A stretch of 45,489 bases of DNA, from contig JAFZUW010000023.1 of assembly GCA_017618195.1 (NCBI GenBank), forward strand, positions 1-45,489, read 5' to 3'. The DNA is from Lachnospiraceae bacterium. Lineage in GTDB: Bacteria; Bacillota; Clostridia; Lachnospirales; Lachnospiraceae. The translations under genes and the position numbers were made by a program. How positions within the stretch are numbered: the first letter of the stretch is position 1; the number at the start of each line of letters is the position of its first letter. Under the pieces are notes generated by a model that saw nothing but the letters and a program-made list of their open reading frames with translations, did no database searches and was not told the DNA's origin. Of the stretch, positions 2,871 to 42,835 are shown one piece after another.

Positions 2871-3311
2871 CTACTCGCTTCCGAGTATCTTCAGATAGTG
2901 GACGCCCTTTATATTACGCACGCCGGAAAGAAGGTCCTCCGTCGCTTCGGTTTCCGGAAGGATTTCCACACCGAGTGCAACCGAGGCGATTCCGCCGGTC
3001 GGGATGCTCTGCTGGATGGTCAGCACGTTTGCCTTGCTTCCGGCAATCTTCTGCAGGATCCGCGAGAGAATGCCGGGCTGGTCATCCACCTGAAGCATGA
3101 TGTTTAACGTCTTGCCGCGCGAATTCTCATGAAACGGCAGGATCGCGTCGCGGTACTTGTAAAAAGAACTTCTGCTTAATCCGATCGCGTCCGTTACTTC
3201 CTGAACGGTCAGGGATTCATCACAGGCGAGTCGATGCTTCGCCTCTACCACTTTCAGCAGAACCTCCGGCAAAGCTGACTTAGTTACGATATAGTACTCT
3301 TCCGTTCCCAA
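2871..3311 (-). CDS. ACT-domain regulator of the PheB/ThrR type
   Basis: This 146-residue protein has an N-terminal helix-turn-helix-like part (residues ~25-55, with TVQEVTDAIGLSRSSFYKYR). A C-terminal ACT domain (~70-145) contains the typical DQPGILSRIL start. The length matches the PheB/UPF0735 family. A Bacillus subtilis member is reported to control threonine genes (ThrR); that link is from memory. Start: TTG at 3311, preceded by AGAAGGAGG about 8 bases upstream. The upstream in-frame ATGs lack a site. As first gene before hom, it probably senses threonine or a related amino acid and regulates its own operon. Confidence 0.8.
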   Translation of the reverse strand: MGTEEYYIVTKSALPEVLLKVVEAKHRLACDESLTVQEVTDAIGLSRSSFYKYRDAILPFHENSRGKTLNIMLQVDDQPGILSRILQKIAGSKANVLTIQQSIPTGGIASVALGVEILPETEATEDLLSGVRNIKGVHYLKILGSE

Positions 3312-3510: not shown

Positions 3511-3544
3511 AAAAAAACAGAGCAATCCGCAGACTGCTCTGTTT
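3511..3544 (-). terminator. Terminator of adhesin/peptide cassette 1
   Basis: On the minus strand AAACAGAGCA (3544-3535) pairs with TGCTCTGTTT (3524-3515) and is followed by a T run, 40 bases after the peptide stop. It closes the two-gene unit adhesin 1 plus peptide 1. Confidence 0.8.
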
Positions 3545-3584
3545 GAGGAATACTAAATTGCAGGAATGTCGAACAAAAACCGTA

Positions 3585-3701
3585 TCAGGTTCCCGGCTGA
3601 TCGTCCCCGGTACCGCCCCAATGGTCGCCGGATTCCGTAACCACGTCTGCGTTTACCAGCTCAACAACTTCCAATTCGGCTTCTTCAAAAAACTTCTTCA
3701 T
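3585..3701 (-). CDS. Small acidic peptide, cassette 1
   Basis: This 38-residue frame is too short for usual gene calling. AAGGAGG at 3714-3708 sits 6 bases before ATG. The product starts MKKFFEEAELEV, continues VELVNADVVTES, then has a Trp at 28 and a Gly/Asp-rich tail ending QPGT. It begins 35 bases after the adhesin stop and precedes a terminator, so it is the last gene of the adhesin transcript. The second cassette has a 41-residue paralogue in the same place. The N-terminal 24 residues are well conserved and the tail varies. There is no signal peptide, Cys or membrane segment. It resembles short leader-core peptides, but no modification gene is nearby. Function unknown. Confidence 0.85.
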   Translation of the reverse strand: MKKFFEEAELEVVELVNADVVTESGDHWGGTGDDQPGT

Positions 3702-3736
3702 AGCTTACCTCCTTAGTAATAGCCTGTGCCCCTCAC

Positions 3737-6613
3737 TCAGTCCTGAATCGACCAGAACTTGTTGTCTCTTACATAAAAAGTATAGTAGAACCATACCGAC
3801 TCACGGCCCTCTTCGTCCGTGTAGTAAACCGTCAGATAAAGCGTGTCATCCTCATATTCCGCGGGAACGACAAGACGGAGCACGTTCAGTCCGTCGTAAT
3901 CCTTCACATAGGGATCATGAGAAAGAAGCTTTGCGGTCTCAACTTTTGCGGAAGCCTTACGTCCGGGCATGTCGCAGAAGGCATCCACAAGGTTTTTGTT
4001 GTTCTGCGTCTCATAGAAGATTGCGGCATCATGGCCGAAGCCTTCGTTCGAAATCGTAATGCGGCTGTATTCCGCACGCTTTTCGTCTACGCCGTATACC
4101 ATCGAGATCAGCATGAACTGATCATCCTTGTACTGACCTTCCTTCAGCTCTTCATCGTATGCGTAAGGAGCCGGAGCTGCTTTTCTGAGGCCTGCGTTTC
4201 TCTTCTGAATGAATACGTACTCATCCGCATTCTTGTCGGCCGTCAGACGGCTGTAAACCGCGGAGCCGGGGATCAGGTAGTGATCGTTGAAGGAAATGAT
4301 ATGGCAGTACAGCCAGGGGGTCTTTCCTCTTACAATCTCAACCGGACGGAGAATCGTCTCAAACTCAGCATCCTCGTAGTCAAATGTGTAAACGTCCTCG
4401 CCGGGAGCGTACAATTTGCCGGTGGCAACATCGCGCCAGTAAATCGTATATTCACTGTTGGTCGAGTGCTCGCCGAGGCAGATGTCGATCTCGTCGTCGC
4501 TAAGTTCGGGGAGCTCGCCGGTCGTCTCGGAACCGAGGTATGCGGTATAGTCATCGGCATCCTCATCATAGAAACCGTCCTTGTAAACTTCAATGCGCTC
4601 GCCGTCGGGATCAACCAGATAGAAGGTTGCCTTGTACTGCTTGCGGAGTACGATGTGGTACTGCGCAACAACGCCGTCTGCATCTACAAAACCGTTTGCG
4701 TCTACCTTCGTAACCGTCGTGTCAACGTATCCTTCCGGAACGCTGTAGGAAATATCGAAAAGACCGTTCTCACCGAACCTGTCGGCCGATACGCCGTAAG
4801 AAGCGCCGGTCTTGCTTCCGTTCTGAACCTGACTTCCGAGAACCGGAACGTCGTAGGTATATTTGCTTACAAACTTGTCGTAGCTTACGTTCTTATCAAT
4901 TGCTTCGTCATATACCGAAACAACCGAAGCGGAACCGTTCAAAGGATTAACCTTCTCTCGCGCCGTCACGGAAGTGCTTCCGTTCTTCGTGAATCTCTCA
5001 TTCAGCGTTACGGCAAATGAGGACGCATCCGGCCTCGAGAAATCCTTGTTCTGCTTGTCATCCCACATAACGTCAACCGTTACCTTTGCGGTAGGATAAA
5101 GAACGAAGTATACGTTGGAATTTCCGAAGGTGTACTCGGTCGTCCAGTCGATGTCATCCTTGCGGGTCATGTTCTTATAGTTGCCGGTATTCAGAAGGCC
5201 GCTTCCGCTAAGCGCATCCGCCCACTTCTTTCCGTCCTCGTACACTTCAAACTTAAAGCCGCAGCCGTTCTCAAGAAGCTCCGCGTAGTAGCTCATATCG
5301 GAAGAAGCCATTGCGTTCTTCACTGCTGCCTTGTTGCTTCCTGCCGCATCATTTACGAGTGCTGTTACGGATTCGCCCTTCTTGAAGCCCTTGGAGCTTG
5401 TATCGGGCATCGGAGCCTTTTCCGTTCCGATGAATGCCTTATATACGGAAGCGGGGATCTCATAAAGCTTTCCGTCCGTACCGTAATACATATAATGAAC
5501 GGTGTACTGCGGATCGCAATCCTTCACGTACTCTTTCGGAAGGTTGAATCCGAAGTGTCCCATCTCACATTTGATGTCGATGCTCTTTGCGACAATCTGA
5601 CCTGCATGATGTCCGTAACCGCAGTATTTGTCGGTCACATTTGCCGACGGAGCAAGGATACATCCGCGAAGCGCGTTGTAAAGGTTAACCTGCTCTGCCT
5701 CAAAGAAGTTGAACAAAACGCGGGAATTGTCCGAGCTGCTCTGGCTGATCTGCTTCGATCCGATATAGAAGCAATCGGTCTGGCCGCCCTTGATGTTAAC
5801 GGTCTTACCTTCCACACTGATAACCGCATAAGCGCCGGAAGGAATGTTCAGGGTAATTCCGTTAGCGGACTGGTTCCACTGTGCTTCCGTCAGACGGAAA
5901 TAGTTTACGGTATTGCTGCCGGTCAGAATCAGCTTGCCCTGCGCGGCCTTTACGGTACCGTTAACGGTCTGGGAAGCAAGGTTTGCACTCTTCGTACGAA
6001 GAGCTGCCATTTCATTATTAAAATTGATCAGCTTATTTTCCGGAAGATACACCAGCGTCTTACGGATCGCATCATTAATATAAGAGTTGCCCTGACCGGG
6101 ATCGGACAGGCTCGTTACCTTATCGGAAACGACATAGATGTGCTCAACGCCGTTATAGTTCTGGTTAACGTAACCGAACGTCCTGCTCTTTGCATTGTTG
6201 CAGATAACCGCTGCCGCACCGTTAATATTTGCATTGGCCTGCTGCGGGTTTGAAAGCGAGTCGTTCGTAAGGAAACCCTTGATCGGGAATCCGCCGTTCG
6301 GGCAGGATGCAATCTTGAACTCGTCTGCGGCGATACGGCCGTCCGCATCGGAATAGCATCCGTTGTTCGGGTTGATCACAACGTTCTGTCCGAACAAAGA
6401 AAAATGGCCCGCGATGCCGAGATAGTATTTGTCCTTCTCGTCCTTTTCGGTGCCATACAGCAATTTGTTATAGTCTTTTTGCGTTGTAGGCTTAATCAGT
6501 GCAGCCGTTCTGTTCTGCACGAAAGCCAGTGCCTCCTGGGGTAATACGGCCGAAAAAGCCAGTACAAGTGTCAGTACGGCACAAATCACCCTTTTTCCAA
6601 ATAATTTTTTCAT
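3737..6613 (-). CDS. Secreted adhesin-like protein, choice-of-anchor A plus Cna-B-like domains (copy 1)
   Basis: The 958-residue product has a signal peptide (1-30, basic start, hydrophobic core, ending EALA). Residues ~64-358 match the choice-of-anchor A/pAdhesive pattern: YYLGIAGHFSLFG, DGRIAADEF, then VLFNFFEAEQVNLYNALRG with CILAPSANV and HHAGQIVAKSI. Residues ~510-665 look like a Cna-B-type beta sandwich (VDVMWDDKQNKDFSRPD, then YSVPEGYVDT). The C-terminal ~250 residues are beta-rich and unrecognised, ending DNKFWSIQD. There is no LPXTG or membrane tail, so surface retention is unexplained. The start follows GGAGGAGG. A small peptide gene follows by 35 bases. A paralogue lies upstream (7449-10367). 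Confidence 0.85.
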   Translation of the reverse strand: MKKLFGKRVICAVLTLVLAFSAVLPQEALAFVQNRTAALIKPTTQKDYNKLLYGTEKDEKDKYYLGIAGHFSLFGQNVVINPNNGCYSDADGRIAADEFKIASCPNGGFPIKGFLTNDSLSNPQQANANINGAAAVICNNAKSRTFGYVNQNYNGVEHIYVVSDKVTSLSDPGQGNSYINDAIRKTLVYLPENKLINFNNEMAALRTKSANLASQTVNGTVKAAQGKLILTGSNTVNYFRLTEAQWNQSANGITLNIPSGAYAVISVEGKTVNIKGGQTDCFYIGSKQISQSSSDNSRVLFNFFEAEQVNLYNALRGCILAPSANVTDKYCGYGHHAGQIVAKSIDIKCEMGHFGFNLPKEYVKDCDPQYTVHYMYYGTDGKLYEIPASVYKAFIGTEKAPMPDTSSKGFKKGESVTALVNDAAGSNKAAVKNAMASSDMSYYAELLENGCGFKFEVYEDGKKWADALSGSGLLNTGNYKNMTRKDDIDWTTEYTFGNSNVYFVLYPTAKVTVDVMWDDKQNKDFSRPDASSFAVTLNERFTKNGSTSVTAREKVNPLNGSASVVSVYDEAIDKNVSYDKFVSKYTYDVPVLGSQVQNGSKTGASYGVSADRFGENGLFDISYSVPEGYVDTTVTKVDANGFVDADGVVAQYHIVLRKQYKATFYLVDPDGERIEVYKDGFYDEDADDYTAYLGSETTGELPELSDDEIDICLGEHSTNSEYTIYWRDVATGKLYAPGEDVYTFDYEDAEFETILRPVEIVRGKTPWLYCHIISFNDHYLIPGSAVYSRLTADKNADEYVFIQKRNAGLRKAAPAPYAYDEELKEGQYKDDQFMLISMVYGVDEKRAEYSRITISNEGFGHDAAIFYETQNNKNLVDAFCDMPGRKASAKVETAKLLSHDPYVKDYDGLNVLRLVVPAEYEDDTLYLTVYYTDEEGRESVWFYYTFYVRDNKFWSIQD

Positions 6614-6708
6614 ATAATATAGCCTCCTCCGGGGGTCTCCGGCCCCATCCGCGCTTAGTATTGATAAACTATTATCACGACGCGCGCAAATACAAACACA
6701 ACATTTAG

Positions 6709-6738
6709 ACTATACTACTCTGTAAATAGGAAAGTCAA
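6709..6738 (-). promoter_or_regulatory. Promoter of cassette 1
   Basis: On the minus strand TTGACT (6738-6733), 18 bases, TATAGT (6714-6709). The leader of about 95 bases holds the motif ATACTAAGCG, which also occurs with small changes in the leader of cassette 2. Confidence 0.6.
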
Positions 6739-6785
6739 CCCCAAAATAGGAAAATTTATGAAAAAATCTGCATTTTCCGTTCTAA

Positions 6786-6819
6786 GGATAAGATACTACA
6801 TCGGATAAGAAACTACATG
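6786..6819. repeat. 17-bp tandem direct repeat, two units
   Basis: Two adjacent units (6786-6802, 6803-6819) share GGATAAGAWACTACATS with two mismatches. They lie 48 to 82 bases upstream of the -35 box of cassette 1, where activators usually bind. Function is inferred only from position. The surrounding 6740-7070 is AT-rich and I see no gene in it. Confidence 0.6.
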
Positions 6820-7071
6820 CTATGCCATTTTGCTTTGCACATTTGTGTATAATATGACAAATTCCCCTGTGCTGCTTCCATTGCACAATGTCAGTATTTA
6901 AAATGCTTACAGCGGTTTTTGATAGTAGTAAAATGCACTTTTGTATTCTGCTTCAAACATGTATAAAATATTTCCCATGTAGTTATTTATATACACTTCT
7001 ATGCAACAGGCATCCCACAGGTATTCAGCCGCACATATATAATATGAAGTAATTTAAAATTTTTCACATGC

Positions 7072-7124
7072 AAAAAAAAAGGAGTATGGGCACCACGGCC
7101 GAGCGCCCTATCCGTGCACTCCTT
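7072..7124 (-). terminator. Second, downstream terminator after cassette 2
   Basis: On the minus strand AAGGAGT (7124-7118) pairs with ACTCCTT (7085-7079) with inner GC-rich pairing, and is followed by nine Ts. It lies beyond the tandem repeat array, so any transcript passing the first terminator at 7233-7261 would carry the repeats and end here. Confidence 0.6.
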
Positions 7125-7128
7125 ACAA

Positions 7129-7228
7129 ACGCATAACGAAACAGTCTTCTCACACGCATAGCGAAACCATCTTCTGACACGCATAGTGAAACCATCTTCT
7201 CACACGCATAACGAAACAGTCTTTTCAC
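7129..7228. repeat. 25-bp tandem repeat array, four units
   Basis: Four head-to-tail units of exactly 25 bp start at 7129, 7154, 7179 and 7204 with the pattern ACGCATARYGAAAC followed by MRTCTTYTSAC. A degenerate fifth start (ACGCAAAAACGG) runs into the terminator stem. Units 1 and 4 are nearly the same and units 2 and 3 are nearly the same. The period is not a multiple of three, and I see no convincing reading frame. There are no spacers, so this is not CRISPR. Confidence 0.9.
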
Positions 7229-7232
7229 ACGC

Positions 7233-7261
7233 AAAAACGGAGCAGCCCGAGGACTGCTCCG
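7233..7261 (-). terminator. Terminator of adhesin/peptide cassette 2
   Basis: On the minus strand CGGAGCAG (7261-7254) pairs with CTGCTCCG (7245-7238), followed by TTTTT. It is 32 bases past the peptide stop, the same arrangement as in cassette 1. Confidence 0.8.
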
Positions 7262-7293
7262 CTTTTCGTATTGAATTTTAATTAAATCAGTGA

Positions 7294-7419
7294 CTAAGGT
7301 TCCGGATATCCCGGCTCCGTTCCGCCCTGGCCTGCCCAGTAAGGATCGGACTCCGTAACGACATCGGAAGATACCAGCTCAACAATGCTTAAGTCAACTT
7401 CTTCAAAGAATTCCTTCAT
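7294..7419 (-). CDS. Small acidic peptide, cassette 2
   Basis: This 41-residue frame follows a GGAGGG site about 5 bases before ATG and lies 29 bases after the stop of adhesin copy 2. It starts MKEFFEEVDLSI, continues VELVSSDVVTES, has Trp at position 28 and ends with Gly, Pro and Glu (TEPGYPEP). Compared with peptide 1, MK, FFEE, VELV, DVVTES, W28 and PG at 36-37 are identical, while most changes are in the tail. Conservation of reading frame, length, position and Trp between paralogues argues that the peptide is really made. It has no signal peptide and no Cys. Function unknown. Confidence 0.85.
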   Translation of the reverse strand: MKEFFEEVDLSIVELVSSDVVTESDPYWAGQGGTEPGYPEP

Positions 7420-7448
7420 ATTTTCCCTCCGTAAAACGACCTCATGTA

Positions 7449-10367
7449 TTACTGACCCTGAATCGTCCAGAACTTATTCTCTCTGATATTGAATGAATAA
7501 TAGAACCAAACCGATTCGCGTCCGGCAGCATCCGTATAATATACGGTCATATAGAGATCGTCATCAACATATTCCTCGGGGATGACAAATCTGAGAAGGC
7601 TCACACCGTCATACTCGTTCACATAAGGATCATGAGGAAGCAGCTCCGCCGTGGACATGCTCTGTGACTTCTTGCGCCCGGGCATGTCACAGAAGGAATC
7701 TGCAATCTCCTGATTCTTCTGCGTCTCATAAAAGATTGCATCATTGCTTCCGAATCCCACGTTCGAGATCGTGATGCGGCTGTATTCCGCACGATCCAGA
7801 TCAACGCCGTACGCCATGGAAACGATCATGAAGTTGTCGTCCTTGAACTTGCCTTCCTTCAGTTCGTCATCGTATGCGTAAAGATCCTCGGATGCCTTTG
7901 CACCGGAGTTATCCTTCTTCTGAATGAAGATATACTCATCCGCATTCTTATCGGCCGTCAGACGGCTGTATACCGATGAACCCGGAATCATGAAGTTGTC
8001 AAGGTAAGAGATGATATGGCAGTACAGCCAAGGGGTCTTTCCGTTTACAAGATCGGTAAGACGAAGCACCGTCTCAAATTCCGCATCTTTATAGTCGAAC
8101 ATGTAACCGTCACCGGTTTTGTATACTTTTCCGGTCTCAACATCACGCCAGCTGATCGTATATTTACTGTCGGTTACGTGTTCTCCCATGCAGAGTTCGA
8201 TCTCATCTTCATTCAATTCGGGAAGACCATTGATACCGGCACTGCCGAAATAAGCTACATAATCATCGCTCTCTTCATCATAAAAACCTTCTTTGAAGAT
8301 TTCCGTCCGGCTTCCGTCCGGCAGGACAAGGTAGAAAGCAGCATTATATCTTCTGCGAAGTACGATATGATACTCTGCAACATATCCTTCTTCATCGACA
8401 TAACCGTAAGCGTCAACACTTTTCTCAGTTGCATCAACATATCCATCCGGAACCTGATAAGAAACATAGAATAATCCGTCCGGTCCGAACAATTCCGAAG
8501 AAACACCGTATGCTGCGCCGGTTTCTTCGTCGAAAAGCATCTGCCGTCCGAGAATCGGAACTTCAACATCGAACTGATAGGTATAACATTCATATTCCAC
8601 TTCGGAATCGGTTATATCATCCCATTTTTCGTCAACACTGTGTTTTTTATAACCGTGATCAAGCGATCCGCGTTTTGATTCGTACCACACGTTTTCTTCA
8701 AGTGAACCCCGTTCCATAAGGGATACTTTGCTTTCGAATAGTACGTCATTCGGTCTCAGTCCTTCCTGATTGAACCGGTCATCCCACGAGACATCCAGCT
8801 TAACCTTTGCGGCAGGATACATGATGAAGAACACATTGGAATTCTCGAATTTGTACGAATCGTGCCAATTAATATCTTCCAGCTTGGTCATCTTGAGATA
8901 ATTGCCGTGATCAAGCAGATCACGTCCGAAGATTGAACCGAACCAAAGCTTTCCGTCTTCATATACTTCAAAGCGGATATTGCCGCCCTTACGAAGATGT
9001 TCCGCATAATAGCTCATATTTGAACTGTAAAACGCCTGCTTCAGCTGTTCTCTGCTTTCATCAGATTCATCGAACGCCCGAATCTCATCGCCTGTCTCAT
9101 ATCCGGTTGCATGCTCGCCGGGCATCGGAGAACAGGCTTTGCCGATGAACAGTTCATAAACGGCGGAAGGAACTTCCTTGAGACTTCCGTCCGTATCATA
9201 GTACATATAATGAACGGTATAATTCTTCGACGGATCTTCCGTAACCGCACTTGCCGGAAGTTTGAATCCGTAGCGGCCCATCTGCGCACAAATACTGATC
9301 GTTCTTCCGATGATCTGCGCCGCATGATGTGCGTTATTGGAAGAATCCTTTATGTCCGCCACGGGAGCAAGGATACATCCGCGGGCTCCGACATAAAGAT
9401 TGACCGACTCTGCCTGGAAGAAATTGAACAGCAGCTGCCCGTTTATTTCTTCGCTCTGCATAACCTGGTTTCTTCCCCAGTAAAGCATATCCGACTGTCC
9501 GCCGGTAATATTGATAGTCTTTCCGGGAACGCTGATAACTACGAAAGCATCTCTCGGCAGATCAATCCGGATTCCGCCGCTTGAAGCGGTCCACTGTTCT
9601 TCCGTAAGATTAAAATAGAAAACCTTCTTGGTTCCGGGAGCGCCGGGGCCTCCTGCACCGGGACCGCCCGCACCGGGTTCGGGTTTCTTCTCGCTGAGAA
9701 CAAGCTTGCCTTCCCTAATCTCGACAACGCCGTTCTGTTCCGTATTGGCAAGTCTTCTGCTCTTCTCACGGAGCAGATCCATCTCCTCCTCGAAATTGAT
9801 CACGGAGTTCTCCTCAACCTTTACTACACGCTCATTCAGCATTCTGTAGTATTCTTCACGGCCGTGGAAGTTGTCCGGTACCTCAACAAAAGATTCCGCT
9901 TTATCGGAAACAACAAATACCTTCTTACCGGTAATCTGCTCGTTGTAGTCCGGTTTGATGAAACCAAACTCTTTCGATTCCGCATTATTACAGATAATGC
10001 TTGCCGCCCCCTGAAGCTTGCCTTTATTGCGATCGGTCTCGCACGCCAGGAAACCGGAAACCGGATATCCCCATGTGCCTTCCTGCCAGGAATTCACGTA
10101 GAATTCATCGGCCGCAATCCGGCCCTCGCAGTCCTTGTACTGACCGGTACCGTCCGCATAAATGCCGACACTCGTACCGAATAACGCAAAATGTGACGCC
10201 GTGCCGAGATAGTACTCGGTCCTGTCACTGCCGTAGATCAGAGTTTCTCTGTCCGGCTGCCCCCCTGCTGCCGCAATGGCCGTCACGCCGTTCGGCAACA
10301 CGGATGATACACACATAACCATCGTTAAGACGGTGGTGATCACCCTTTTCACAAACACACTTTTCAT
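7449..10367 (-). CDS. Secreted adhesin-like protein, choice-of-anchor A plus Cna-B-like domains (copy 2)
   Basis: The 972-residue paralogue of 3737-6613 has the same order: signal peptide (1-33), choice-of-anchor A-like domain (~50-370, with YYLGTASHFALFG, EGRIAADEF, LLFNFFQAESVNLYVGARG and CILAPVADI), Cna-B-like domain (VKLDVSWDDRFNQEGLRPND, then YQVPDGYVDAT), and the same beta-rich C-terminus ending ENKFWTIQGQ. The C-terminal third is the most conserved part, for example TPWLYCHIIS and SRLTADKNADEY. A collagen-like GPGAGGPGAGGPGAPG insert is found only here. There is no sortase motif. The start follows GGGAGG. It forms an operon with the 41-residue peptide. Confidence 0.85.
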   Translation of the reverse strand: MKSVFVKRVITTVLTMVMCVSSVLPNGVTAIAAAGGQPDRETLIYGSDRTEYYLGTASHFALFGTSVGIYADGTGQYKDCEGRIAADEFYVNSWQEGTWGYPVSGFLACETDRNKGKLQGAASIICNNAESKEFGFIKPDYNEQITGKKVFVVSDKAESFVEVPDNFHGREEYYRMLNERVVKVEENSVINFEEEMDLLREKSRRLANTEQNGVVEIREGKLVLSEKKPEPGAGGPGAGGPGAPGTKKVFYFNLTEEQWTASSGGIRIDLPRDAFVVISVPGKTINITGGQSDMLYWGRNQVMQSEEINGQLLFNFFQAESVNLYVGARGCILAPVADIKDSSNNAHHAAQIIGRTISICAQMGRYGFKLPASAVTEDPSKNYTVHYMYYDTDGSLKEVPSAVYELFIGKACSPMPGEHATGYETGDEIRAFDESDESREQLKQAFYSSNMSYYAEHLRKGGNIRFEVYEDGKLWFGSIFGRDLLDHGNYLKMTKLEDINWHDSYKFENSNVFFIMYPAAKVKLDVSWDDRFNQEGLRPNDVLFESKVSLMERGSLEENVWYESKRGSLDHGYKKHSVDEKWDDITDSEVEYECYTYQFDVEVPILGRQMLFDEETGAAYGVSSELFGPDGLFYVSYQVPDGYVDATEKSVDAYGYVDEEGYVAEYHIVLRRRYNAAFYLVLPDGSRTEIFKEGFYDEESDDYVAYFGSAGINGLPELNEDEIELCMGEHVTDSKYTISWRDVETGKVYKTGDGYMFDYKDAEFETVLRLTDLVNGKTPWLYCHIISYLDNFMIPGSSVYSRLTADKNADEYIFIQKKDNSGAKASEDLYAYDDELKEGKFKDDNFMIVSMAYGVDLDRAEYSRITISNVGFGSNDAIFYETQKNQEIADSFCDMPGRKKSQSMSTAELLPHDPYVNEYDGVSLLRFVIPEEYVDDDLYMTVYYTDAAGRESVWFYYSFNIRENKFWTIQGQ

Positions 10368-10465
10368 AAAAAATAAGCCTCCCTACACGGTCACTGCCTA
10401 TCCCTGCGTTAGTATCTTTTTGCTTCTTTCTACACGCATAGAATGGCATAAAATCAACCTTTTAT

Positions 10466-10494
10466 ACTTTACGCCTAAAAAAAGGAAAAGTCAA
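10466..10494 (-). promoter_or_regulatory. Promoter of cassette 2
   Basis: On the minus strand TTGACT (10494-10489), 17 bases, TAAAGT (10471-10466). The -35 box and the T-rich spacer start resemble those of the cassette 1 promoter, and the leader again carries an ATACTAACG motif. Confidence 0.6.
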
Positions 10495-10649: not shown

Positions 10650-13130
10650 CTACTGCGATACATACGCTTCGAGTGAATCTCCGAGACCGACCAGAGCCCT
10701 CGTCAGCGCGGCTGATCCGAAGCCTCTCTGCTCCGCCAGAGCCGCGTATATTTCCATACTGACCGTCATGGATCCGCTCACTGCCGCTCCGTTCTTTTTG
10801 ATGACAAATCCGACCGGCGTACGGCATTCCTTCAGGGCAATTCCGGAAAGCGTAATGCGGTATTCCTTCTCGCCGGTATTGACCCAATCCGATGCGGGGA
10901 TACGGAAGGTCACGCCGCCGATCGTAATCTCGGCGGACTCATGCAAAGGCTCGCCCTCTCCGTTCACATAGAAGTTAAAGGATATCCGGTTGTTCGCGGA
11001 CAGCGAGAAGCCGGCTGCGTACCAGTCGAACAGTCCCGTGGAAGTGTCCTCGTAAGCGCTTGAAGAAAGCGTTACGGACTGCTGCTGCGTCGCAAAGGAC
11101 GCCAGTGCGGAAGTCAGATGTCCGGAAGCCGGAACGGCCTTATGATAGCTGAAATAATTCTGTGCTTCGGTACCGTACGCAAGCATGTCCGCAAGTACGC
11201 GCTTCAGTCCGGCATCGGCCGTGCCGCTTGCAAGGATCTCGTCAACATACTGTCCGATGCTGTATGTGTCTTCGGCATATTGATAAACCTGACCGTTCTT
11301 CACTCCGGTCAGAGAAGCTTTAATCTCACTCGTCATTTCTTTGGCCGTGATCCCGCGGTAGCAATACACGCGGTAAGCCGCTCCGCCGATTGTTTCGGAC
11401 ACATAAGAGCGAAGGATCTCCGTTTCATAAGAAGCAATCGCATTGCCTTCGTAGTACGGCTTTGTGACGCTCAGATAACACTCGTCATAAGTGCCGCAAA
11501 CCGATTCCGGCACATAATAGTTGATGCCGAACGATTCGCCGATCGCGCAGGCGTGTGTCGCAATCGCGTTGCCTTCCGAAGGCACGGCGCTTCCCTGCAC
11601 CGTAACCGTATAAGTGCACGTCATGAATCCGAGTTTCGCGGTAACCTCCGTCTGCCCGGCCTTTGCGGCGTAAAGGCATCCTCCCTCATCAACCGTGACA
11701 ATCGACCGGTCCGCCGAGGAAAATGTAAGCGTTCCCGTTTCCACAACGCAGGTAGGCTCTCCGTTCCCGAACCACACTATGCTTGGGCAAGGCTTGCCCG
11801 CTTCGCTTACCGGCTCCTCCATGTGAAACAGGGCCGCATCGGAAAGAAGGTATTTTGCATAGCGGATCGGCACCGCTTTCGCAACGCTTCCGCTTTGATA
11901 GCTTGCCAAACTTCCGGCGGCGGTCTTTACTTCGATCACGCAATAGTAAATTCCGCCGGTTTCCGCGATTCCGATACCGATACCCTTGTAACTTGCACTC
12001 TTCAGGGTGTTTCTGCATTTGCCCGAAGCAATGAATCCGTTATAAATTGCAGTCACGTCGGGGTCTTGCTCGTCCGGCCGGTAGATAAAAATATACTCGC
12101 CGGTAGTGGACAGTCTTGTTCCGTCCGGGCGGATCGGGGTACTCTTGTCGCAGTGAACCGAAATCTCGGCAGCACGCGTCATCGCCGTATCGCTGAGAGC
12201 TGCATCGATCATGATCGGAGTGATTCTGCTTCGTATTCCGCCGTTGATCGACGTAAGCAGCAGGTTTGCAAGATCATACCGCTCGGTTAAGGAAACGGAA
12301 ACGGTCTCCATCACCGCATAGCCTTTGTCCGTGATACCGAAATAGTCCGGGATATACGATACAAGCCGCTCCGGAAAGGCGTCCAGATCGATTACCTCAA
12401 CGCTGTCCGGGATTGCCGGGATGCCCTGATAGTTTGCGGGAACGGCTATCAATTCCTTCCCGTCCGCCGTATAAAGAATACCGTCTATACTCTCATACGC
12501 TGTCTGGCCGGCAGCGCAGTAAATCATTGTAAGCTTGGCCGCCCCGGTGAATACCGGGCTGTCAATGCCGCCCGCGGGAACGCTTGCGGGAACGGTAAAT
12601 TCCTTCATTCCGCTTCCCTGAAATACGCAGCGGTCCATTTTCGTAACCGAAGCGCAGGTAACGCTCTGCAGGGCATCGCAGTTTTCAAATGCGAACTCGC
12701 GGATTCTTGTCACCTGATTCAGGTCTACACTCATCAGACTGAGACACCCTTTAAATGCTCCGAAAGGGATTTCCGTAAGGGTACCGGGTATCGAAACAGA
12801 CCGAAGTCCCTCCAGCGAACTGAAGCATCCGTCCGGAAGCTTCGTGATGCCTTCTTCAATCACAACCGAGCGGATCATGGTCCGGTACGTGTTCGTTCCG
12901 TGAAGAGCCTCCTCTGTGTTCCACGGACTGTCCGTAACCTTGCCGGATCCGGAAATCGTCAGCTCATATCCGCCCTGGATCGTCGTAATCATATACGTCA
13001 CGCCGTCTCCGCACGCTCCGCTCTCGATAACGTCGCCGTCCGCGTACGCGCGCCCCGTAAGGCCTGTGAACGCAAGAACGAGCGATAATAAAAGAAGCGG
13101 GATCATCCATTTGCCGATACCATTTTTCAT
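10650..13130 (-). CDS. Secreted protein with BspA-like leucine-rich repeats, CAP domain and Ig-like domain
   Basis: The 826-residue product has a signal peptide (~1-30). Next come a BspA-type start (YELTISGSGKV) and leucine-rich repeats (~90-205: LPDGCFSSLEGLRSVSIPG, AFKGCLSLMSVDL). A CAP/SCP domain follows (~275-410: LLLTSINGG, ALSDTAMTRAAEISVHC, then RPDGTRL), and a BIG2-like domain (~450-515: SADRSIVTVDEGGCLYAAKAGQTEVTAK). The C-terminal ~300 residues are unrecognised. CAP proteins are extracellular and BspA repeats often mediate adhesion. I chose ATG at 13130, preceded by AGAGG, over the in-frame GTG at 13157, which has no site. The gene is monocistronic. Confidence 0.85.
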   Translation of the reverse strand: MKNGIGKWMIPLLLLSLVLAFTGLTGRAYADGDVIESGACGDGVTYMITTIQGGYELTISGSGKVTDSPWNTEEALHGTNTYRTMIRSVVIEEGITKLPDGCFSSLEGLRSVSIPGTLTEIPFGAFKGCLSLMSVDLNQVTRIREFAFENCDALQSVTCASVTKMDRCVFQGSGMKEFTVPASVPAGGIDSPVFTGAAKLTMIYCAAGQTAYESIDGILYTADGKELIAVPANYQGIPAIPDSVEVIDLDAFPERLVSYIPDYFGITDKGYAVMETVSVSLTERYDLANLLLTSINGGIRSRITPIMIDAALSDTAMTRAAEISVHCDKSTPIRPDGTRLSTTGEYIFIYRPDEQDPDVTAIYNGFIASGKCRNTLKSASYKGIGIGIAETGGIYYCVIEVKTAAGSLASYQSGSVAKAVPIRYAKYLLSDAALFHMEEPVSEAGKPCPSIVWFGNGEPTCVVETGTLTFSSADRSIVTVDEGGCLYAAKAGQTEVTAKLGFMTCTYTVTVQGSAVPSEGNAIATHACAIGESFGINYYVPESVCGTYDECYLSVTKPYYEGNAIASYETEILRSYVSETIGGAAYRVYCYRGITAKEMTSEIKASLTGVKNGQVYQYAEDTYSIGQYVDEILASGTADAGLKRVLADMLAYGTEAQNYFSYHKAVPASGHLTSALASFATQQQSVTLSSSAYEDTSTGLFDWYAAGFSLSANNRISFNFYVNGEGEPLHESAEITIGGVTFRIPASDWVNTGEKEYRITLSGIALKECRTPVGFVIKKNGAAVSGSMTVSMEIYAALAEQRGFGSAALTRALVGLGDSLEAYVSQ

Positions 13131-13229
13131 ATCTTCATCCTCTTCATTTTTGTGCACAAATACGATTGCCTCGTATCTGTCCGGGGAACAGCCCCAATGC
13201 TACGTTTCATCTCATAAAACATAACACAA

Positions 13230-40363: not shown

Positions 40364-40377
40364 TGAGACAAATCAAA

Positions 40378-40451
40378 AAGATATTGTTTCTGACGGTTCA
40401 GTGGAGCGCACCACAGGGAAGCAATATCCGTTTTAAGCCGACCGTCTGGGC
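40378..40451 (+). ncRNA. ZTP-type (pfl motif) riboswitch upstream of pflB
   Basis: GATATTG (40380-40386) pairs with CAATATC (40422-40428) as the outer stem. GTGG (40401-40404) pairs with CCAC (40411-40414) as the inner hairpin. The joining GACGGT (40392-40397) can pair with ACCGTC (40441-40446) as the pseudoknot. The end CTGGGC matches the conserved 3' block. The usual G-C pair in the pseudoknot appears replaced by A-U on both sides, which is good covariation support. ZTP riboswitches sense ZMP/ZTP, which build up when 10-formyl-tetrahydrofolate is scarce, and usually turn genes on. A terminator overlaps the 3' end. Confidence 0.85.
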
Positions 40452-40488
40452 AATATTTTCCGAAAGAAAATATTGCCCTTTTATTTTT
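40448..40488 (+). terminator. Riboswitch-controlled terminator
   Basis: GGGCAATATTTTC (40448-40460) pairs perfectly with GAAAATATTGCCC (40466-40478), followed by TTTTATTTTT. Its first bases are the conserved GGGC of the aptamer, so ligand binding would prevent the hairpin and allow read-through to pflB. The 115 bases after it hold only the pflB leader and ribosome binding site. Confidence 0.9.
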
Positions 40489-40603: not shown

Positions 40604-42835
40604 ATGAACGCATGGGAAGGATTTAAAGGCCAGACCTGGAAAGACGAAATCAACGTACGCGACTTTATTCAGAACAATTACACTCCTTACGAGGGTGACG
40701 CTTCCTTCCTTGCGGGCGCGACCGACCGCACGAAGGAACTGATGGGCAAGCTCTCCCATCTCTTCGATCTTGAGCAGCAGTTCGGCGGCGTTCTCGACAT
40801 CGACACGCAGCACGTTACCTCGCTTCTCAACTATAAGCCCGGTTACCTCGATAAGGACAGGGAACTGATTGTAGGTCTTCAGACCGACCGGCCGCTCCGC
40901 CGCGGCGTTAACCCGTTCGGCGGCCTCAACATGACGAGAAAGGCATGTCAGGCTTACGGCTACGAACTCTCTGAGAAGGTTGAGGAAGAATTCCTGTACC
41001 GCACCACCCATAACGACGGTGTATTCCGCGTATACAGCGACGAGATCCGTAAGGCACGTCACGTCGGCATCATCACCGGTCTTCCGGATGCTTACGGCCG
41101 CGGACGTATTATCGGCGACTACCGCCGTGTGGCTCTGTACGGTGTGGACCGTCTGATTGCCGAGAAGCAGAAGGACAAAGCGGAACTCGCCGCGACACAG
41201 CCGATGGAGGCCGAAACGATCCGCCGTCTTGAGGAACTGTATCAGCAGATCAACTTTCTCGGAAAGCTCAAGGATATGGCGCTTCTGTACGGCATCGACA
41301 TCAGTAATCCGGCAACCAACTCCAAGGAAGCTATCCAGTGGCTGTACTTCGGCTACCTCGGAGCCATCAAGGAACAGAACGGCGCCGCGATGAGCCTCGG
41401 CCGCACTTCCACTTTCCTTGACATTTACTTTGAACGTGATCTCGCGAACGGCGTTTACACCGAGAGCGAACTGCAGGAGCTGCTTGACGACTTCGTGATG
41501 AAGCTCCGTATGGCAAGACATCTCCGCACGCCCGAGTATAACGAACTCTTCGCAGGCGACCCGATGTGGATCACCGAGTCGGTCGGCGGTATGGGCGAGG
41601 ACGGACGCACGCTCGTTACGAAGAACTCCTTCCGTATCCTCAACACGCTTTACACCTTGGGACCTTCCGCCGAGCCGAACCTGACGGTTCTTTGGTCGAA
41701 GGATCTGCCCGACAACTTCAAGCATTTCGCGACCAAGGTATCGTGCGATACCGACGCGATCCAATATGAAAATGACGACCTGATGCGTCCCATCTACGGC
41801 GACGACTACGGCATCGCCTGCTGCGTATCCGCGATGCGTCTCGGTAAGGATATGCAGTTCTTCGGCGCAAGAGCGAACCTCGCGAAGCTCCTTCTGATGA
41901 GTTTAAACGGCGGACGCGACGAGCGCTACAACCTGCAGGTTGGCCCCGAGATGCCGGTTTATGACGGCGAATACCTCGATTATGACAAGGTTATGGAGCG
42001 CATGGGCATCTACCGCGAGTGGCTCGCCAAGACCTACGTTACCGCGATGAACATGATCCATTACATGCACGACAAATACGCCTACGAAAAGACACAGATG
42101 GCGCTGCATGACACCAATGTACACCGCTATATGGCATTTGGCGTTGCGGGTCTTTCGGTACTGGCCGATTCCCTCTCCGCCATCAAATACGCAAAGGTTA
42201 AGCCGATCCGCGACGCGGAGACCGGCCTCATCAAGGATTTCGAGACCGTAGGCGAGTTCCCTTGCTACGGTAACGATGACGACCGCGTTGACCTGCTCGC
42301 GAAGGAGCAGACCGAGCTCTTCCTTGCGGCACTGAAGAAGATTCCAACCTACCGGAATGCCGAGCATACGCTTTCGATTCTGACCATTACGTCAAATGTT
42401 ATGTACGGCAAGAAGACCGGCAACACGCCCGACGGGCGCCGCGCCGGCGAGCCTTTCGCACCCGGGGCGAACCCGATGCACGGCCGCGATAAGAGCGGCG
42501 CTCTCGCATCGCTCAACTCGGTTGCGAAACTCTCCTACAAGACCTGCAAGGACGGCATCAGCAACACATTTTCCATCATTCCGCAGGCGCTCGGACATAG
42601 CGACGAGGAGCGATATGACAACCTGATCAGCATCCTTGACGGATACTTCGCGCAGAACGCGCATCACCTGAACGTGAACGTACTGAACCGCGAGACGCTG
42701 ATCGACGCAATGAATCATCCGGAGAAGTACCCGACGCTCACGATCCGCGTATCCGGCTATGCCGTAACCTTCAACAAACTGACGCTCGAGCAGAAGAAGG
42801 AAGTTATCTCCAGAACATTCCACGAAGCTGTATAA
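40604..42835 (+). CDS. pflB: Pyruvate formate-lyase (formate C-acetyltransferase)
   Basis: The 743-residue glycyl radical enzyme converts pyruvate and CoA to acetyl-CoA and formate. The catalytic Cys pair is in [11 protein letters not shown] near 405. The glycyl radical loop is [12 protein letters not shown] near 720. The start [20 protein letters not shown] and the NPFGGLNM block are typical of PFL rather than diol dehydratases. GAGGAGG precedes ATG. It is controlled by the strong promoter and ZTP-type riboswitch upstream; its activase is encoded next. Formate feeds 10-formyl-tetrahydrofolate and purine synthesis, which fits the riboswitch ligand. Confidence 0.97.

Follow-up and report, generated by a model that had tools for sequence, protein, structure and literature searches.

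Two tandem two-gene cassettes lie on the minus strand of a 45,489-nucleotide (nt) contig from a Lachnospiraceae bacterium (JAFZUW010000023.1, assembly GCA_017618195.1), which was analysed whole and is called the window here; its genome is G000. Each cassette holds a gene for a large, secreted adhesin-like protein, then a gene for a peptide of 41 or 38 amino acids (aa), then a terminator hairpin. The layout suggests a two-gene operon that encodes the adhesin-like protein together with a short precursor of the kind that yields ribosomally synthesized and post-translationally modified peptides (RiPPs). Unit 2 is the upstream cassette and unit 1 the downstream one:

10466..10494, minus strand: unit 2 promoter-like site, TTGACT-17-TAAAGT, found as a consensus match
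7449..10367, minus strand: unit 2 secreted choice-of-anchor A protein, 972 aa, from Pfam and NCBIfam domain matches
7294..7419, minus strand: unit 2 peptide, 41 aa, with leader-like residues 1-24 MKEFFEEVDLSIVELVSSDVVTES and tail DPYWAGQGGTEPGYPEP, the boundary between them being putative
about 7233..7267, minus strand: unit 2 intrinsic terminator hairpin, z -7.1 in folding against shuffles
6709..6738, minus strand: unit 1 promoter-like site, TTGACT-18-TATAGT, found as a consensus match
3737..6613, minus strand: unit 1 secreted choice-of-anchor A protein, 958 aa, from a domain match and a weak fold similarity to ice-binding proteins and pilins
3585..3701, minus strand: unit 1 peptide, 38 aa, with leader-like residues 1-24 MKKFFEEAELEVVELVNADVVTES and tail GDHWGGTGDDQPGT, again with a putative boundary
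about 3514..3543, minus strand: unit 1 intrinsic terminator hairpin, z -4.5 in folding against shuffles

These features bear out a preliminary description of the window, which had called the region a tandem pair of two-gene cassettes. The coordinates hold, the protein stop and the peptide gene are 29 nt apart in unit 2 and 35 nt apart in unit 1, and the units share 50% identity in their large proteins and 58% in their peptides. Both hairpins, each followed by a run of T, outfold 200 of 200 shuffles; a simple pattern scan reported that of unit 2 on the plus strand only and missed that of unit 1. The promoter type said to be common to the units is also present. TTGACT with a spacer of 17 or 18 nt precedes both, and six cassette upstream regions from three genomes all keep TTGAC and a GTA at the -10 box; the number of promoter-like matches barely exceeds that in shuffles (13 observed versus 9.8). 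Ribosome sites, AAGGAGG and GGAGGG, one per peptide, lie about 6 nt 5' of the peptide ATGs. Rfam gave no riboswitch at gathering score 5' of the cassettes, and between positions 3300 and 10800 just two sub-threshold matches, both to eukaryotic families. Tandem repeats of 25 nt (ACGCATAACGAAACAGTCTTCTCAC) occupy 7129-7236, just outside the unit 2 terminator; by eye, similar short repeats (GAGCGTGTCGTTAAGACAGAATTT) lie 3' of a peptide gene on contig C28 of the same genome (L008, about 10066-10140).

The large proteins resemble adhesins. Both match TIGR04215 (choice_anch_A) above its curated cut-off (107.7 and 70.9 bits versus 29), that of unit 2 also matches PF20597, an ice-binding-like adhesive domain, and a crude test finds a signal-peptide-like N-terminal segment in both. 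An AlphaFold model of the unit 1 protein (P0003) was of moderate quality (predicted local distance difference test 73.7, predicted template modelling score 0.45); searched against known structures, it placed ice-binding proteins at the top (best E 3e-4) and the pilins SpaC and PitA weakly, fold similarities that are consistent with an adhesin. The "choice-of-anchor A/Cna-B-like" label given to these proteins earlier survives in its first half; for Cna-B we found no Pfam match at E ≤ 1 in either window protein, and the weak pilin similarity is all that points that way. LPXTG, the one anchor type looked for, is absent from the last 60 residues of nine out of nine relatives. Across 22 genomes of the genus the large protein occurs at ten places in six genomes, and none of the other 396 genomes of a family-wide sample, which held one other genome of the genus, contains a full-length relative (E ≤ 1e-20).

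The peptide follows the adhesin wherever the adhesin was found. All ten copies in the genus have a peptide gene directly 3', 10-39 nt away (for G017, whose adhesin is cut by a contig end, the distance was taken from coordinates), and four of the six adhesin-carrying genomes hold a tandem pair. The pairing is not peculiar to the window, in agreement with the earlier proposal that it is conserved; the outcome named there as refuting it, a peptide beside the adhesin in no other genome, did not occur. In the G007/G017 peptide pair, nonsynonymous divergence (dN) is 0.10 and synonymous divergence (dS) 0.85, and this low ratio (about 0.12) shows purifying selection on the peptide as a predicted protein. 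Because Trp occurs in 10 of 10 adhesin-linked tails versus 5 of 15 other members of the same alignment (counted by eye), these tails may be tuned to the adhesin. Divergence of adhesin and peptide is nonetheless uncorrelated (Mantel r 0.12, p 0.26, nine pairs). In three of the four tandem genomes the two peptides of one genome are at least as similar to each other as to any peptide from another genome (identities 0.58, 0.52 and 0.55, with one tie, in G005), and the adhesins mostly show the reverse, being closer to copies in other genomes than to their own-genome partner. Ahead of the cassettes, window positions 10650-13157 encode a secreted protein with a BspA-type leucine-rich repeat region, and a secreted protein of similar length takes the same position in G005, G007, G012 and G020.

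The window peptides belong to a larger family. Both carry MK-FFEE, VELV at 13-16, DVVTES at 19-24 and Trp28, just as the preliminary description listed, and neither (P0001, P0002) matches a Pfam or NCBIfam model at E ≤ 1; four members from other genera have no NCBIfam match at E ≤ 0.1. Searching with P0001 returned three more copies in the own genome, and a five-member profile brought the total to eight at E ≤ 0.1, six besides the window pair. Three of these lie directly 3' of secreted proteins of 1612, 1668 and 1699 aa (two on C28, one on C35). The copy on C46 sits between a 438-aa secreted protein that has no Pfam or NCBIfam match and a gene for a radical S-adenosylmethionine (SAM)/SPASM enzyme, with HprK-like, TraX and signal-peptidase-like genes also at the locus. 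Next to the copy on C26 are a PqqD frame (PF05402, 43.1 bits, cut-off 23.4), an HprK-like gene and two genes that by eye are ABC-transporter-like; a second PqqD of the genome is on C6. The copy on C71, the weakest of the eight, is near neither secreted-protein nor modification genes. By eye, the PqqD frame beside the C26 peptide (L010, about 9580-9903) appears split over two frames and may be damaged. Also by eye, the secreted protein on C46 (L009:5677-6993) and that at window 10650-13157 have in common a C-terminal segment of the form YG-(A/T)(A/E)AQ-YF-Y.

Family members have a common leader and a variable tail. The peptide is present in 10 of 22 genus genomes and in 25 of 397 genomes sampled from 334 genera of the family. 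About 24 N-terminal residues are common to its members, the leader consensus of 38 of them reads MKExYExPExExVxFExxDVITTS, and members from other genera show this form, fuller than that of the window copies, together with acidic, variable tails. Among the 59 peptides whose neighbourhoods we compared, 30 have [FY]xxP in the leader and 48 end it in D[VI][IVM][TVAMC]xS. By its sequence, then, the peptide is a conserved coding gene built as RiPP precursors are. One genome, G279, has an expanded set, ten copies spread over nine contigs, and just one HprK-like match. The member beside a radical SAM gene at G020:C32 (L060:3774-3896) has a Cys-rich tail, unlike the window peptides. When the tails of 57 peptides were compared with the C-termini of neighbouring proteins, seven exceeded z 2.2. 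We kept two as notable, both in G028, where a protein encoded nearby ends in a C-terminal tail that recurs in the peptide tail (EYELPFIP and LPDD[IV]F; L151:7271-8023, z 7.5, 22 nt away, and L139:6592-7899, z 4.5, 316 nt away). We discounted the other five on judgement, namely L157 (z 5.0, at a distance of 1.3 kb), L146 (z 3.8, on the opposite strand), and L158, L049 and L160 (z 2.4-2.5).

A place directly after a predicted secreted-protein gene is far commoner for family members than for other genes. A signal-peptide-bearing protein of at least 300 aa is encoded on the same strand within 200 nt upstream of 28 of the 59 peptides, versus 37 of 347 control genes drawn from the same loci (p 3e-10, signal peptides being called by the crude test), and the figure remains 20 of 49 without the ten adhesin rows. 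The 59 comprise 28 matches from the genus and 31 of 42 other, non-G000 matches from the family, with nine peptides and the matches in G167 and G174 left out; outside the genus, neighbourhoods were read for 18 family genomes.

At the level of whole genomes, the peptide family goes together with an HprK-like kinase and, within the genus, with a PqqD protein too. Ten of the 22 genus genomes have the peptide, and all ten are among the 12 that have both an HprK-like gene and a PqqD over cut-off (Fisher tests: peptide-kinase 1e-4, kinase-PqqD 1.5e-6); the genome-wide PqqD search covered the genus. Across the family the kinase occurs in 25 of 25 peptide genomes versus 57 of 372 others (p 3e-19), counts that ignore the shared ancestry of the genomes. 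A first family profile had matched 21 genomes, of which 19 have the kinase; the two without it, G167 and G174, were matches inside longer frames and disappeared with the better profile, which added six genomes to reach 25. All six have the kinase, a prediction passed, though the profile was built from kinase-bearing genomes.

Most of the peptides compared do not lie near modification genes. An HprK-like gene lies within 7.5 kb of 16 of the 59 peptides, and any of five gene kinds (HprK, PqqD, radical SAM, S26, nucleotidyltransferase) within that distance of 20, a slight undercount in that a simple open reading frame (ORF) caller missed the HprK-like gene beside two peptides at G021:C34. Signal-peptidase-like genes lie within 7.5 kb of nine peptides and ABC genes near 13. 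All six adhesin genomes have an HprK-like gene (56-100% identity) and, encoded away from it, a PqqD of one kind, read as frames of 88-89 aa in G005, G007, G012 and G020 and by coordinates only in G000 and G017. The kinase adjoins a TraX-like gene in all six, an identity that Pfam confirmed for C46 only, and a signal-peptidase-like gene in five, the G017 contig ending before it. Precursors outnumber kinases: G279 has ten peptides and one HprK-like gene, G000 eight and two.

We propose that the peptides are RiPP-like precursors, bound by a PqqD protein encoded in trans and modified, probably phosphorylated, by an HprK homologue, with production tied to secreted proteins. We regard this account, operon structure included, as somewhat probable. 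Its closest biochemistry is that of paeninodin, with a PqqD-type B1 protein that binds the leader and an HPr kinase homologue that phosphorylates the precursor's C-terminal Ser (PMC8498205, PMC7533575, PMC5067487); because this is the nearest precedent while no lasso B2 protein reached its cut-off in the adhesin genomes, we call the peptides RiPP-like and non-lasso. A PqqD homologue encoded elsewhere would bind the leader as a RiPP recognition element and present the peptide to the HprK homologue, which would phosphorylate a Ser or Thr in the tail or in the TxS motif. Leader removal may then fall to the signal-peptidase-like protein whose gene accompanies that of the kinase, and a small acidic product would leave the cell, a single modification set serving many precursors in trans. 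More speculatively, a common mRNA would have the modified peptide made in step with its secreted protein, and the two might act together at the cell surface, the peptide as companion ligand, decoration or signal.

Several observations weigh against this account. No modification gene lies beside the window cassettes, and none of the five kinds lies within 7.5 kb of 39 of the 59 peptides. In the adhesin genomes no ABC exporter was recognised in the kinase cluster, and the kinase of G007 and that of G017 have no recognised peptide close by. The enzymes are loosely assigned: the C46 kinase (P0006) has TIGR04355 as its best NCBIfam model at 2.5e-5 (23.6 bits, cut-off 200) and no Pfam match, hence "HprK-like" only, and the signal-peptidase-like gene matches its model below cut-off. 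Of 82 kinase-bearing family genomes, 57 have no detected peptide, and the association counted above takes no account of common descent. The coupling to secreted proteins has no downstream counterpart (9 of 59 peptides versus 41 of 347 controls), and the upstream excess depends on same-locus controls and a crude signal-peptide test. In both window leaders the Pro of the [FY]xxP motif is missing. The Trp of every adhesin-linked tail raises the chance of a dedicated partner, and G020, with a within-genome peptide identity of 0.33, runs opposite to the other tandem genomes.

The alternatives that survive best are each unlikely. In the first, the radical SAM/SPASM enzyme encoded on C46 acts on the peptide in trans, and the product is a radical-SAM RiPP instead of a phosphopeptide. 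That enzyme (P0005) matches TIGR04463 at 2e-36, below cut-off, its best-scoring models are RiPP maturases, and family members sit beside such an enzyme at C46, G012:C33 and G020:C32. A P0005-like enzyme (E ≤ 1e-8) was not found in G007 and G017, which have adhesin and peptide, or in G006 and G013, which have other peptides (G017 is 79% complete), yet all four have kinase and PqqD, and the window peptides lack Cys. With no such enzyme found in G007 and G017, it is the kinase and PqqD, and not a radical SAM protein, that accompany the peptide constantly. Next in probability is a peptide that never leaves the cell and that PqqD and the kinase read there as a regulator or a sensor of secretion. 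Its lack of a signal peptide fits, as does the lack of a recognised ABC transporter in the adhesin genomes' kinase cluster, and an operon would couple peptide level to secreted-protein level; the signal-peptidase-like genes near the kinase and near some peptides, the ABC genes near others, and tails that vary as strongly as RiPP cores do speak for export.

A dedicated partner, that is, a chaperone, cap or cargo binding the adjacent adhesin directly, is improbable too. The invariable placement 3' of the adhesin and the Trp-bearing tails favour it, and the preliminary description had suggested that the peptide works with, or is delivered by, the large protein. Of that suggestion the pairing stands. 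The idea that the peptide is private to the adhesin or carried by it does not, for the same family follows unrelated secreted proteins, lies beside modification genes and is tied to HprK and PqqD, and the negative Mantel test led us to reject a private peptide.

Lasso leaders carry an aromatic-x-x-P motif and a Thr near their end. That the peptides are lasso precursors is very improbable, despite the [FY]xxP and leader-end motifs of many members, a PqqD and HPr kinase pairing as in paeninodin clusters, and an Asp at position 9 of the unit 1 tail counted from Gly25. B2 (PF13471) is over cut-off in none of the six adhesin genomes, its four sub-threshold matches lying in frames of 862-915 aa, and on this search we rejected the lasso assignment; moreover, the window leaders have no Pro, and inspection by eye shows neither Asp nor Glu at positions 7-9 of the unit 2 tail, whichever way these are counted. 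No C macrolactam synthetase was noticed by eye among the ORFs listed at the loci read, where no model search was aimed at it. Chance, untranslated frames are scarcely credible: short frames are common (159 in 14 kb), but recurrence across genus and family genomes, the low dN/dS of one close pair and clear ribosome sites refute them at the level of sequence.

A general strategy may lie behind the modified-precursor account, though we hold this only tentatively and think it doubtful as yet: large secreted surface proteins might each have a RiPP precursor of their own encoded beside them, and a single PqqD/HprK apparatus per genome would turn all of these into small phosphorylated, perhaps glycosylated, peptides that are released with the surface protein and act alongside it, a bacterial strategy so far undescribed. 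If true, the modified-precursor account would be a new link between surface adhesion and peptide natural products and would give HprK-like and PqqD proteins a substrate outside lasso clusters. It would also delimit a peptide family whose tested members match nothing in Pfam or NCBIfam. Elsewhere in the window, a ZMP/ZTP riboswitch occupies 40376-40458 (58.5 bits, cut-off 39), and just 3' of it a 743-aa frame (40604-42835) reads like pyruvate formate-lyase.

The preliminary description knew of no system of this form. As far as the searches reach this holds, since they returned neither a family model nor a published description of the peptide family, but lasso clusters that include PqqD and HPr kinase are clearly related. 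Paeninodin-type clusters combine a PqqD-like B1, an HPr kinase homologue and a nucleotidyltransferase, which in pseudomycoidin is reported to add hexoses (PMC8498205, PMC7533575, PMC5067487). In common with them, the family consensus leader has aromatic-x-x-P and a Thr near its end, and a PqqD-family protein, an HprK homologue, and NTP_transf_5 or ABC genes occur near some members (PMC8498205, PMC7533575). In contrast, the adhesin genomes lack a lasso B2 over cut-off, the window leaders lack Pro, and the precursors are dispersed over the genome in apparent operons with secreted proteins. An older survey mentions HPr kinase in some lasso clusters of anaerobes (PMC4289311), and the RRE-Finder report notes discrete PqqD-like proteins that have no lasso machinery and could represent RiPP classes not yet characterised (PMC7470986).

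Known TIGR04215 choice-of-anchor A proteins with an ice-binding-like domain share that domain with the window proteins, above cut-off, together with the weak ice-binding-protein fold similarity. The window type differs in its constant peptide neighbour, its lack of LPXTG (nine of nine), and full-length relatives confined to 6 of 22 genus genomes and, among the 397 family genomes, to its own. Radical SAM/SPASM RiPP systems (TIGR04463, geopeptide, Clo7bot) resemble the three loci at which a family member sits beside such an enzyme, whereas scores here are far under the curated cut-offs, several peptide genomes have no detected enzyme, and the window peptides have no Cys. Prochlorosins and Nif11-type peptides are systems in which one maturase serves many precursors. 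The family described here likewise sets many precursors against few enzymes (10:1 in G279, 8:2 in G000), but with another leader and other enzymes, and with its precursors coupled to secreted-protein genes.

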